This document shows, one piece after another, positions 8,906 through 11,744 of a stretch of DNA of 64,000 nt (its first letter is position 1; each line of letters opens with the position of its first letter). The stretch is taken from positions 1 to 64,000 of the forward strand of contig JACCQI010000007.1 of assembly GCA_015709315.1 (NCBI GenBank), given 5' to 3'. The DNA comes from Desulfovibrionaceae bacterium (GTDB taxonomy: Bacteria; Desulfobacterota; Desulfovibrionia; Desulfovibrionales; Desulfovibrionaceae). A program made the translations under genes and the position numbers. The notes under the pieces are model-generated. The model saw nothing but the letters and a program-made list of their open reading frames with translations, was not told the DNA's origin and ran no database searches.

Positions 8906-10012
8906 CTATTTCTTGGGGGGCCTGCGCCTGCGTCTGCGGGGGCGGCGGCTGCGCTTGTTCTTATCCTGATCAGCGCCATCGGGCTTCGCGGCCCTGTCCG
9001 ACCGTTCGGTGCGCGCCTTGGGAGGCCGCCTGGTACGCCCTCCGTCCGAGCCGCTCCCGTCATTACCGTCCTGTCCGCCGCCGGACGGCTCGCGGGGTCC
9101 GCTTCTCCGGTCCGCCGGGGCCGGAGCGACCGGACGTCTTCCGCCGCGCGGGCTGCGCTGGCGTCTGGCCTTGGCGTCGGCCACGGCCGCCTCGCTTGGC
9201 GGCTTGTCAACTATTTCATTCCATTCGTCAATGGAAAGTTCCCGCTCCTCGTAGTCCTCGTCCAGCACGGTCAGCGCCTTCTTGAAGAAATTGGTGCGGA
9301 GCACCTTCAACTGTCCCTGGGCCGTGGTGTACTTCTTGCCCACGCGGGGACACATGTGATGAAATTCCTCGTATCCCTTCTGTTCGAAGCTCAGACAGCA
9401 GAGAAGACGGCCGCAAATGCCCGATATCTTTGTCGGATTAAGAAAAAGGTTCTGCTCCTTGGCCATCTTGATGGTCACGGGAACGAACTTCCGCATGAAG
9501 CGGCGGCAGCAACATATCTGGCCGCAGTTGCCGATGGCACCGAGCATCTGGGTCTCGTGGCGAACGCCGATCTGCCGCAGTTCGATGCGGGTCCGGTACT
9601 CGCGGACCAAGTCCTTGATCAGCTCGCGGAAATCGATGCGGCCGGGCGCGGTGAAATAAAAGACCATCTTGGAGCGGTCGAAAAAGACCTCCACGTCCAC
9701 CAGCTTCATGCCCAGCTTGTGGTTCGCTATGCACCGGCGGCAGAACTGGAACGCCTCCCGCGACAATTGCTTGTTGTCCTCCACGGACTCCATGTCCTTG
9801 TCGTTGGCCAGCCGGTAAATGGCCTTGCAGCCTTCGGGATCGCCGTCCTCGTTCTCCTTGGGGGCCTGGCGGATGAGGATCACTTTCCCGAGTCCCATGC
9901 CCTGATCGGTCTTGACGATGACGTGCTGCCCTTCGCGGACTACGAACGGTCCTGATGCGAAATAATACACCTGCCCGTAATCGTTGAACTTAACACCAAG
10001 AATTTGGCTCAT
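8906..10012 (-). CDS. ricT: PSP1-domain protein RicT/YaaT family with basic C-terminal tail
   Basis: 368 residues. Residues 1-270 are a PSP1/YaaT domain: start MSQILGVKFNDYGQVYYF, then the hallmark cysteine groups CRRC (about 91-94), CGQICCCRRF and CGRLLCCLSFE. In Bacillus the RicT homologue belongs to the RicAFT complex, which binds Fe-S clusters and affects RNase Y-dependent RNA processing; whether that holds here is inference. The last 100 residues are low-complexity and strongly basic ([15 protein letters not shown] at the end), a likely nucleic-acid-binding tail not usual in Firmicutes homologues. It is directly upstream of metG, and the pair is probably co-transcribed. Confidence 0.85.
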   Translation of the reverse strand: MSQILGVKFNDYGQVYYFASGPFVVREGQHVIVKTDQGMGLGKVILIRQAPKENEDGDPEGCKAIYRLANDKDMESVEDNKQLSREAFQFCRRCIANHKLGMKLVDVEVFFDRSKMVFYFTAPGRIDFRELIKDLVREYRTRIELRQIGVRHETQMLGAIGNCGQICCCRRFMRKFVPVTIKMAKEQNLFLNPTKISGICGRLLCCLSFEQKGYEEFHHMCPRVGKKYTTAQGQLKVLRTNFFKKALTVLDEDYEERELSIDEWNEIVDKPPSEAAVADAKARRQRSPRGGRRPVAPAPADRRSGPREPSGGGQDGNDGSGSDGGRTRRPPKARTERSDRAAKPDGADQDKNKRSRRPRRRRRRPPKK

Positions 10013-10502
10013 TTATTGTTTCCTGTTATATGAACGCCCCGGTCGGGCCGGGGGAGTAGGTATCGCGCAAAAAATAGAAGTATATCAGAAAAAATTCTTC
10101 GACGTTCCATATGGAATTCATTCATTACCCTAGCCTGAATAGGAGCGACGATCAAGTGGACCATTGCGATGGGGGCCGCCGCGTTCCGGCAGCTTTCCGC
10201 ATTTGCCCTGGCGACTCGATACGACGGATCCGGGCATTCCGGGCAGACGTTGGCAGGTATGAAATGCCGCCGAACCGCAAAACCCCGCACACGGGGGCGC
10301 CTGGAAGACTCTTGAGTTCTATCCCGTTGGATTCCCTCAAACAAAAGCCTGGCCTGATTTCAAAAACCGTCGCCCCGTCCCCACCTCCGTAAAAAGCGAC
10401 CCGTTATAATCGTTAAGCAAAGACGAAAATATCCTTGCCACGCCCTTTTTTTAAGATACCGTCAAAGTGATATTCATAAACTTTTTTTAAGGAAGGTGTT
10501 CT
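10013..10502. other. Intergenic region upstream of the methionine-rich gene
   Basis: 490 bp between the divergent ricT-like and methionine-rich genes. A consensus TATAAT lies at 10405-10410 but no good -35 sits 16-18 bp before it. AT-rich DNA at 10045-10115 is the likely promoter zone for the minus-strand operon. AAGGAAGG at 10490-10497 is the ribosome-binding site of the next gene. I see no convincing coding region in it. Confidence 0.5.
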
Positions 10503-10946
10503 ATGAAAAAGGTTTCTCTGATCGTGACGGCCGCGTTGTTTGCCCTGGTGATCGTATCAAGCGTCGCCGTGGCTGCCTCCATGGACAAAAACATGCCTGC
10601 GGACCAGGGCCAGATGATGATGGACCAGGGCCAGATGATGATGGACAAGGGTATGATGATGATGGACAGCAGCAAGATGATGATGAACAACGGCAAAATG
10701 ATGATGGAAAACGGCAAGATGATGATGGACAACGGCAAAATGATGATGGAAAGCGGCAAGATGATGGATGACAACAAGAAAATGATGACGGACGCTCAAA
10801 TGATGATGGATAACGGCGAGATGATGATGGACAAGGGCCAAATGATGATGGACATGGCCGAAAAGGAAATGGACCAGTCAAAGATGATGATGGATAAGGG
10901 CCAAATGATGATGAAGGACGGCAAGATGGTGATGAAGAAAATGTAG
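10503..10946 (+). CDS. Exported methionine-rich heptad-repeat protein
   Basis: 147 residues, not a family I recognise. Residues 1-24 form a clear Sec signal peptide (MKKVSLIVTAALFALVIVSS...AVAA). The mature part is almost entirely a run of seven-residue units of the form MMM-D/E/N-x-G-K/Q (MMMDQGQ, MMMDKGM, MMMNNGK, MMMENGK, MMMDNGK and so on), about 15 copies with a short break near residues 114-127. By my count 49 of 147 residues are Met, and there is no Cys or His. Methionine clusters in the periplasm commonly bind Cu(I)/Ag(I) or scavenge oxidants, so a metal-binding or oxidant-sink role is a reasonable guess only. The gene is monocistronic, with a strong hairpin after it. Confidence 0.9.
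   Translation: MKKVSLIVTAALFALVIVSSVAVAASMDKNMPADQGQMMMDQGQMMMDKGMMMMDSSKMMMNNGKMMMENGKMMMDNGKMMMESGKMMDDNKKMMTDAQMMMDNGEMMMDKGQMMMDMAEKEMDQSKMMMDKGQMMMKDGKMVMKKM
10579..10944 (+). repeat. 21-bp tandem repeats encoding MMM-heptads
   Basis: The coding region of the exported Met-rich protein consists of imperfect direct repeats of 21 bp built on ATGATGATGGA-N-AACGGCAA or close variants. One degenerate shortened unit and one extended unit lie around 10770-10880. The period is exactly 7 codons in most copies, so units could be gained or lost by slippage without frameshift. Confidence 0.9.
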
Positions 10947-11253
10947 GAAACGGTCTATCAAGAGCCTGGCAGAACGCCGAAATGGGTCTGCCAGGCTCTT
11001 GTCAATCTTCAACTTTCCCCTCCCCCCTCAATTCGACCGCCGCCATCGGCACGCCGCTCTCCCGCACACTCGGCGGAAATGCCGACGTCAACCGATTGTA
11101 GCCCTCGCGCCATTTGGAAACACGCCGTAGCCTTCACGTACAACGCCAACGCCCCAAGAGCGTGTTGCCCCAAATCCGGCCCAACGCATCAAGCCGGACG
11201 CCGTCGAAAGGGCACGGCACCCGGCTTGCTGTTGAAATGATTACGGGAACGGT
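10947..11253. other. Intergenic region after the methionine-rich gene
   Basis: 307 bp between convergent genes. It contains the 14-bp inverted repeat described separately. The remainder (11001-11253) shows no supported gene, promoter or RNA. Confidence 0.5.
10960..11000 (+). terminator. Strong hairpin after the methionine-rich gene
   Basis: Perfect 14-bp inverted repeat AAGAGCCTGGCAGA / TCTGCCAGGCTCTT with a 13-nt loop, starting 14 bp after the stop codon. The tract that follows (GTCAATCTT) is not a clean run of T, so it may act as terminator or as a 3'-end stabiliser. Confidence 0.65.
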
Positions 11254-11649
11254 TCAGATCAGACCCAGGCTCCTGATCTCGTTCATAAGCTTTTCCTCGT
11301 CGATGGGCTTGACCAGGTAGGATGTGGCCCCGCCCAGGAAAAACGCGTCGTGCGTTTCCTTCTCGTCCGCGAGCATGGTGGTGACGATGACCTTGGCTTC
11401 CAACTGCGGACTCACGTTGTGCTCCTGCTCAAGGGAGCGCATTTCCCGCAGCGCCTGCTGGCCGTCCATCTCCGGCATGAGCAGGTCCAGACAGATCAGG
11501 TTGTAGGGGTCGCGGTCCGCCAACCCCCGCTTGAACGCCTCGATGGCTTCCTCGCCATTGACCGCGATGTCGCACCGCGCCACCTGGCGTAGAATTTCGT
11601 GAATCATGTTCCTGCTGTAAAAATCGTCATCCACGATAAGCGCTCTCAT
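11254..11649 (-). CDS. Single-domain CheY-like response regulator
   Basis: 131 residues, one receiver domain and no output domain. The acidic pocket is intact (VDDD near residue 6-9), the phosphoacceptor lies in LICLDLLMPEMDG, the switch Thr in VTTML and the conserved Lys in YLVKPID. The start at 11649 is chosen because AGGAG precedes it by 6 nt; an ATG five codons earlier has no such site. With no output domain it presumably acts by protein contact, as CheY or a phosphorelay intermediate does. The neighbouring MBL-HDOD pair on the same strand is separated by 95 bp, so linkage is uncertain. Confidence 0.92.
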   Translation of the reverse strand: MRALIVDDDFYSRNMIHEILRQVARCDIAVNGEEAIEAFKRGLADRDPYNLICLDLLMPEMDGQQALREMRSLEQEHNVSPQLEAKVIVTTMLADEKETHDAFFLGGATSYLVKPIDEEKLMNEIRSLGLI

Positions 11650-11744
11650 GCCTTTCTCCTGCATTGCTCATGAATAATGACAATTGATTCCATGGCATTG
11701 AACGAAAAAAAAAGCAACCCGCTTAGCCCGGACTTCCCAGCCGT

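Follow-up and report, generated by a model that had tools for sequence, protein, structure and literature searches.

Within a 64-kb window of DNA from a Desulfovibrionaceae bacterium (the window being the whole stretch that was analyzed) lies a gene for a small and apparently exported protein in which short runs of methionine recur at seven-residue steps. The gene content of the window suggests a sulfate-reducing species. On balance this protein is probably a Sec-exported periplasmic sponge for Cu(I) and Ag(I) that binds these ions through clusters of thioethers. We infer this function from association: look-alike proteins are often encoded beside copper or silver pumps, so the window protein probably soaks up Cu(I)/Ag(I) outside the cytoplasm. 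Such a reading would give a hypothesis for unannotated genes within Cus-type operons and bears on copper handling by sulfide-producing anaerobes. Copper is more toxic in the absence of oxygen, where it is present as Cu(I) (PMC9302797).

The gene and its repeat array

The open reading frame (10503..10946, + strand) encodes 147 amino acids followed by a stop codon and is intact in the host genome (G000:C57). Its translation agrees with the preliminary description of the locus, which counted 49 Met among 147 residues with no Cys and no His. Direct reading places a purine-rich, Shine-Dalgarno-like sequence, AAGGAAGG (10489..10496, + strand), 6 nt 5' of the ATG. Residues 1-24 (MKKVSLIVTAALFALVIVSSVAVA; 10503..10574, + strand) read as a predicted Sec-type signal peptide, with KK, a hydrophobic core and AVA at residues 22-24; this segment has no Cys and thus no lipobox. 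A perfect 15-bp inverted repeat lies 3' of the stop codon (10959..11001, + strand; folding z = -5.56) and would form a terminator-like hairpin without a clear T run. Consensus scans of the stretch returned no sigma-70 promoter and no canonical terminator, the hairpin at 10959..11001 being left unflagged.

The array of Met runs spans residues 38-141 (10614..10925, + strand). Its 14 runs start at residues 38, 45, 51, 59, 66, 73, 80, 87, 94, 100, 107, 114, 128 and 135; 12 of them contain three or more Met and two contain two. The distance from one run to the next is exactly 7 in 9 of 13 cases, the other four being 6, 8, 6 and 14. Among the units the form MMM-[DEN]-[NKQS]-G-[KQE] is the most frequent, and Gly occupies unit position 6 in 10 of 12. 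The heptad repeat that had been described as about 15 copies of one unit, MMM plus four polar residues, is therefore real as a heptad, but the runs number 14 and are not identical, and one of the four supposedly polar residues is usually Gly. Counted from residue 25, the estimated cleavage site, the mature part holds 48 Met in 123 residues. It is devoid of Cys, His, Trp, Tyr, Phe, Arg, Leu and Ile, consists otherwise of Lys, Asp, Gly, Gln, Asn, Glu, Ser and a few others, and has a single Val that lies outside the array.

Against composition-preserving shuffles, the autocorrelation of Met reaches z = 7.7 at lag 7 and z = 6.6 at lag 14, values that rule out a chance origin of the heptads. A microsatellite artefact is also unlikely, as different codons are used in 28 of 91 same-residue comparisons between units; these synonymous differences argue against a young expansion at the DNA level.

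Extra DNA at a conserved locus

The gene is located in a spacer of ~1.24 kb (10013..11253) between a RicT/YaaT-family PSP1 protein gene on the left (8906..10012, - strand), present in 35 of 36 genus genomes, and a single-domain response regulator gene on the right (11254..11664, - strand) that adjoins RicT in congeneric loci. A RicT search gave 30 loci, one of which was the window's own. In all of the other 29 the matches to the flanking genes are 170-197 bp apart (~180 bp), as compared with 1245 bp in the window. Since the same two flanks are this close in 29 of 29 congeneric loci, the Met gene sits in ~1.06 kb of extra DNA.

None of the 29 congeneric loci has an ORF of at least 50 aa above 12% Met, and BLAST with the window protein found no match in the other 35 genus genomes. 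A strict MMM-x4-MMM DNA pattern matched 1 of 36 genus genomes, the window alone, and for this reason a looser pattern of MM at three heptad steps was adopted. A profile of the window protein plus 14 relatives recovered the host and G004 alone at E <= 0.01 (2 of 36 genus genomes, both of them in the profile).

Look-alikes in the family and phylum

Counting the host each time, the looser pattern was found in 35 of the 288 genomes of the family and in 26 of the 395 of the phylum. Many of these matches are signal-bearing proteins of ~110-210 aa with 14-31% Met and lag-7 periodicity; lag 7 is partly built into the search pattern, yet G182 and G184, found with the same pattern, show lag 10. Conservation in relatives, which the preliminary description had named as a check, is thus patchy within the genus and takes the form of looser Met-heptad look-alikes across the family and phylum. 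Unnamed Met-heptad proteins from these genomes include those of G050, G057, G172, G178, G199, G265 and G368, and the L085 protein is identical to that of G050. They are like the window protein in their signal-like N-terminus, seven-residue Met runs, D/E-G-K-rich spacers and similar length, and unlike it in that many contain His and that their Gly is mostly at unit position 5.

No Met-heptad relative that was scanned reaches a Pfam or NCBIfam cut-off. The window protein itself has no Pfam match for CusF_Ec, DUF305 or DUF6799 at E<=1, and its five NCBIfam matches at E<=10 are all under their cut-offs, with none of the Met-rich-peptide kind. The initial impression that it belongs to no named family is therefore borne out for Pfam and NCBIfam. 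BLAST against genome contigs returned 105 stretches with the pattern, none of which was confirmed (a pattern scan of these contigs served just to view other kinds of Met-rich ORF), while plasmids gave nothing and the best PDB sequence match, at E 0.37, is not credible. Among the matches listed for viral contigs there was no exported MMM-[DE]-x-G-K protein, these being low-complexity or differently patterned ORFs. Titles and abstract openings from the openly accessible literature, with most subscription papers outside the search, yielded no description of exported MMM-heptad proteins and nothing on copper resistance of Desulfovibrio by way of a methionine-rich protein.

Homology of the window protein to family relatives beyond Met spacing is weak, being possible but not established. 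A profile of 17 Met-heptad relatives scores the window protein at 18.8 bits, a score reached by 0 of 500 full shuffles but by 174 of 500 shuffles in which Met positions were fixed. Met spacing thus accounts for most of the profile score, and for this reason we claim no orthology with these proteins. In pairwise alignments with Met fixed, the window protein beats all 500 shuffles against 3 of 20 relatives (G057a, G172a and G368). The G368 protein, encoded at locus L367, has the highest raw alignment score among the 20. It also has Gly at unit position 6 in 9 of 10 units, whereas among 91 units pooled from 18 family relatives 63 have it at position 5. G368 comes from another bacterial family than the host, and this, together with the extra DNA at the window locus, suggests that the window gene was gained horizontally.

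Several other Met-rich genes were observed along the way. The exported-looking proteins of L210:5605-6102 and L211:5595-6095, with a period of ~10 (PMMMKDG...), exceed even the window protein in Met content, at 37-42%; inspection of their neighbors by eye revealed no copper gene, and both are outside the loci kept for the E. coli query scan described below. A Met-heptad gene at L193:5742-6128 is possibly carried by a prophage, with genes for a phage minor-tail protein and DNA_circ_N lying ~2 kb away. At L190:6577-8271 and L212:1122-2693, respectively, the Met-heptad genes of G050 and G200 have a neighbor whose C-terminus is similar, the neighbor in G050 matching a cytochrome b domain. Exported-looking proteins with 14% Met at L198:8748-9140 (- strand) and L218:1980-2462 (- strand) have heptads of the form hydrophobic-Met-E-x-G-x-x, which suggests a wider helical repeat family with Met-only forms as its extreme.

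Copper genes beside Met-heptad loci

We searched the surroundings of Met-heptad loci with E. coli K-12 CusA, CusB, CusC, CusF, CueO and CopA, using flanks of ~6 kb where contigs allowed. A locus was scored as positive when it had CusA at >=37% identity, or a CueO, CopA or CusF match. The controls were 40 fixed-grid 12-kb stretches from G004, G007, G058, G062, G178, G186 and G644. Wide flanks were taken for 24 of the 34 genomes that the family pattern search found besides the host, leaving G034, G063, G087, G088, G109, G131, G132, G207, G227 and G253 along with the second places of G058 and G062. They were also taken for 7 of the 25 genomes besides the host from the phylum search, picked from the matched letters before neighbors were listed. 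Thirty loci entered and 24 were kept; L207, L209, L371 and L372 were dropped as having no passing ORF and L210 and L211 by the lag-7 filter, and L213-L215 and L216 were outside the test.

Ten of the 24 loci were positive (L199, L200, L201, L203, L204, L206, L208, L367, L369 and L370), as compared with 0 of 40 controls (Fisher p = 1.3e-5). Host-family loci alone gave 7 of 19 (p = 1.5e-4), and collapsing near-orthologues by our own grouping, the sole correction for kinship, gave 8 of 19 (p = 3.4e-5). Generic RND matches of 22-25% identity occur in 3 of 40 controls, and one of these stretches also matches CusB weakly; counting the three as control hits leaves 10 of 24 vs 3 of 40 (p = 1.6e-3). The CusA homologues at Met-heptad loci are 38-55% identical to E. 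coli CusA. No copper gene was matched in the flanks of the remaining 14 of 24 loci, several of which are on short contigs, and some of these adjoin unrelated genes, among them those for FolD and a flagellar hook protein and, at a distance of ~2 kb, those for phage tail proteins. The proposal that the protein buffers Cu(I)/Ag(I) thus has the support of association at the look-alike loci. In the 64-kb window itself, no match to the six E. coli queries was found at E <= 1e-5.

The arrangement of these genes is informative. L199, L200 and L201 share one gene order, in which an outer-membrane channel is followed by the Met protein, a YHS protein, CusB and CusA. The E. coli order is cusC-cusF-cusB-cusA, so that the Met gene holds the place of cusF. 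For L199 this order is supported by Pfam matches to OEP, YHS (just under its cut-off at 29.3 vs 30.3 bits), HlyD_D23 with a heavy-metal-binding domain, and ACR_tran; for L200 and L201 it was read from matching gene order and sequence plus the CusB and CusA query matches. At L208 the channel, CusB and CusA are immediately upstream of the Met gene, and at L369 CusB and CusA are just downstream. A multicopper oxidase is present at L203 and L204. At L206, from the host's own genus, the 6 kb around the Met gene include a multicopper oxidase, CopB and a P-ATPase that shares 45% identity with E. coli CopA. L367, the closest match to the window in its units, has the Met protein followed by a CusF_Ec-domain protein, an OEP channel, a multicopper oxidase and a cytochrome c. 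L370 was counted from E. coli query scores, its neighbors not being listed gene by gene.

Other metals too can be substrates of such RND pumps, and we therefore examined the Met triad of CusA, which we take to be positions 573, 623 and 672. The triad is complete in all four full-length pumps tested at Met-heptad loci (L199, L201, L208 and L370; the L200 pump is cut off before the triad and the L369 pump was left out). The G172 pump (L216) also has the complete triad, as do all 40 RND loci used for the reverse test described below, whereas none of the three generic RND proteins from control stretches has it. Judged by these residues, the pumps at Met-heptad loci resemble exporters of Cu(I) and Ag(I). 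A site of three methionines in the periplasmic cleft is mentioned in PMC10092412.

Met-rich proteins at RND loci

The association was also approached from the pump side. Forty heavy-metal RND loci were chosen from the list of those over the cut-off, 20 plain and 20 'with neighbours', and loci already known for a Met gene (G172, G178, G181, G186 and G265) were kept outside the 40. Nineteen of the 40 passed the filter, and seven of these (L431, L443, L444, L445, L448, L449 and L452) were dropped since their sole candidate was antisense in the cusA region; the one passing control (L403) was retained as a hit. A small exported-looking Met-rich protein is consequently present in 12 of 40 RND loci vs 1 of 40 controls (p = 7e-4), the 12 positive loci not being independent because they come from four genera.

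In one genus (L434, L435, L437, L439 and also L216 of G172) an exported-looking MTPEQMKQ octad protein is encoded just upstream of CusB. Two of these, at L216:9174-9635 (- strand) and L434:6799-7266 (- strand), match Pfam ALTTAQ_rpt (PF20080) over the cut-off, and the gene before the octad gene at L216 resembles a channel by look alone. In the host's genus, Met-rich helical-type proteins are encoded directly downstream of CusA at L441, L442, L447, L450 and L451. L432 and L440 have other Met-rich proteins directly downstream of CusA, and that of L456 is elsewhere in the locus. The exported-looking proteins of L441 (12863-13366), L442 (12911-13372), L447, L450, L451 and L456 have 149-156 aa with 22-27% Met after the signal; those of L442 and L450 have no Pfam match, and that of L442 has no NCBIfam match.

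CusF matches occur in 10 of the 40 RND loci and in 0 of the 12 with a Met-rich protein (p = 0.015), an exclusion that is confounded by phylogeny because the ten loci with CusF are from other genera and match CusA with high scores. At L367 a CusF domain and a Met protein occur together.

Proposed role and alternatives

In the host genome a single protein matches the heavy-metal P-ATPase family. It is a copper-translocating ATPase (TIGR01511, 600 bits over a cut-off of 397) that contains a CPC motif and two HMA domains. There is no Cu-oxidase_3 match in this genome and no RND protein over the TIGR00914 (CusA/CzcA-family) cut-off among the 2 of 10 candidates that were scored. This inventory fits a stand-alone periplasmic Met sponge acting after CopA, though nothing in G000 ties the gene to copper directly. 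Each MMM triplet would be a thioether cluster that supplies both MM and MxM ligand pairs, and the 14 Met runs together would make a sponge of high capacity and probably moderate affinity. Several Cu(I) or Ag(I) ions might be bound per chain, perhaps inducing a helix. The sponge would hold Cu(I) delivered by a CopA-type ATPase away from envelope proteins, or else pass it on. Where relatives have a multicopper oxidase or a Cus-type pump, a comparable protein in some cases adjoins the oxidase or takes the position of CusF; in the host genome the window copy stands alone. A sulfide-producing host would keep free Cu(I) very low, which counts against a sponge. The Met-only motif MxMxxM binds Cu(I) and Ag(I) selectively and independently of pH (PMC9117721).

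A wider reading is more tentative, and we place it somewhat short of an even chance. It holds that bacteria of this phylum repeatedly use Met-repeat helices poor in His and Cys as Cu(I)/Ag(I) stores or donors of Cus-type RND pumps, often without a detectable CusF. These helices would include the MMM heptads, the MTPEQMKQ octads and the other Met-rich helical proteins at pump loci, and the window protein would be a free-standing, horizontally gained, Met-only copy, with a chemistry that would make its metal binding insensitive to pH and strictly limited to monovalent ions.

An oxidant sink like MrpX and BcrX is unlikely. In such a sink, periplasmic oxidants (hypochlorous acid, peroxide or species derived from oxygen) would consume the Met residues, which would then be repaired by MsrP or lost. 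MsrP is the enzyme that pairs with known Met-rich sink proteins and repairs them in the periplasm. In the host genome MsrP (NF003767) has no match at E <= 1e-20, and of the 288 family genomes just two, G065 and G284, have a match over the cut-off, neither of them being matched by the Met-heptad pattern. Twenty-five more family genomes have matches below the cut-off, including the Met-heptad carriers G193, G200, G201, G261, G265 and G268. These weaker matches lie on other contigs (as in G193, G200, G201 and G265) or away from the Met genes, and they are probably other molybdo-oxidoreductases. No molybdopterin reductase was found among the neighbor proteins scanned, the window protein has no NCBIfam match over a cut-off, and the copper association is not predicted by such a role. 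However, a protein that is one-third Met, with a signal peptide and no Cys, is what a sink might look like, and an oxidant-sink role has been proposed for existing Met-rich peptides, namely Brucella BcrXQP and the MrpX of Azospira suillum (PMC8315932). The earlier suggestion of oxidant scavenging is thus weakened by the rarity of MsrP, with the sub-cut-off matches left in its favor.

It is quite unlikely that the protein binds other soft metals (e.g. Hg, Au, Pd, Pt) or is a general metal-nucleating scaffold for which copper genes are merely the commonest neighbors. Thioethers do bind many soft metals, and 14 of the 24 loci are away from the copper genes queried, but the neighbors that were recognized are of the copper/silver type: multicopper oxidases, CopB, a CusF-domain protein and pumps with the Met triad.

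We also assign little probability to a structural or self-assembling helical protein of the envelope, unrelated to metals, in which Met is just a flexible hydrophobic residue. AlphaFold, run on the single sequence, returns a separate signal helix (3-25) and one continuous helix (33-146) with mean pLDDT 83.6, in keeping with such a protein, but at a pTM of 0.36 this single-sequence model indicates only that the window protein is helix-prone. The preliminary description had envisaged Met stripes on one face of a helix. Because three consecutive Met spread round the helix axis, covering ~200 degrees, the sequence does not give a single Met face; the Met moment is just 0.18-0.22 of 1, which rules out a Met-stripe coiled coil and is too low for a simple coiled-coil face. 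In addition, a structural role leaves the choice of Met unexplained in a mature protein without Leu or Ile and with its one Val outside the array.

Finally, a recently gained or decaying repeat ORF without a selected function would accord with the extra DNA and the lack of BLAST matches in the other 35 genus genomes, but is very unlikely given the intact signal peptide, the ribosome-binding site, the codon-diverged units, the 3' hairpin and a same-register protein inside the copper gene cluster of a distant genome (L367).

Comparison with known systems

The Cu(I)/Ag(I) sponge that we favor can be set beside several known periplasmic proteins. CusF is alike in position, as comparable Met proteins take its place between the channel and CusB in three operons. 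The fold of CusF is a small barrel. In contrast, the window protein is a repeat protein and, having no CusF_Ec (PF11604) match at E<=1 in the Pfam scan, is not a member of that family. MrpX and BcrX, which are found with MsrPQ, are alike in being exported and Met-rich. The MXKDX pentapeptide is both their family name and their unit. The window protein instead has MMM heptads, and membership is rejected given that G000 has no match to the MsrP partner and that no NCBIfam model of this kind matches over its cut-off. DUF6799 (PF20606) was similarly rejected, with no match of the window protein at E<=1 and 15.4 bits for the relative at L367 vs a cut-off of 26.8.

CopM of Synechocystis is a periplasmic protein with 23 Met that binds Cu(I) and is co-regulated with an HME-RND pump, but it has two DUF305 domains and 8 His (PMC4335983), and the window protein has no DUF305 match. 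SilE is described as a disordered periplasmic molecular sponge for Ag that uses Met and His and folds on binding Ag(I) (PMC5008109). SilE and PcoE are, like the window protein, small exported repeat proteins containing Met, and they belong to the sil and pco metal-resistance operons (PMC5008109). However, each has ten His, with motifs such as MxxH..., and 10-15 Met, as compared with 49 Met and 0 His in the window protein, and the window locus is not a sil/pco operon. With no His and no sil/pco/cus cluster in the window, membership in the SilE/PcoE group was rejected. SilE, PcoE and CopM all mix His with Met, which leaves ambiguous the oxidation state that they serve. A natural repeat as regular as this one, and with Met only, would consequently provide a clean test of thioether-only storage of Cu(I) and Ag(I).
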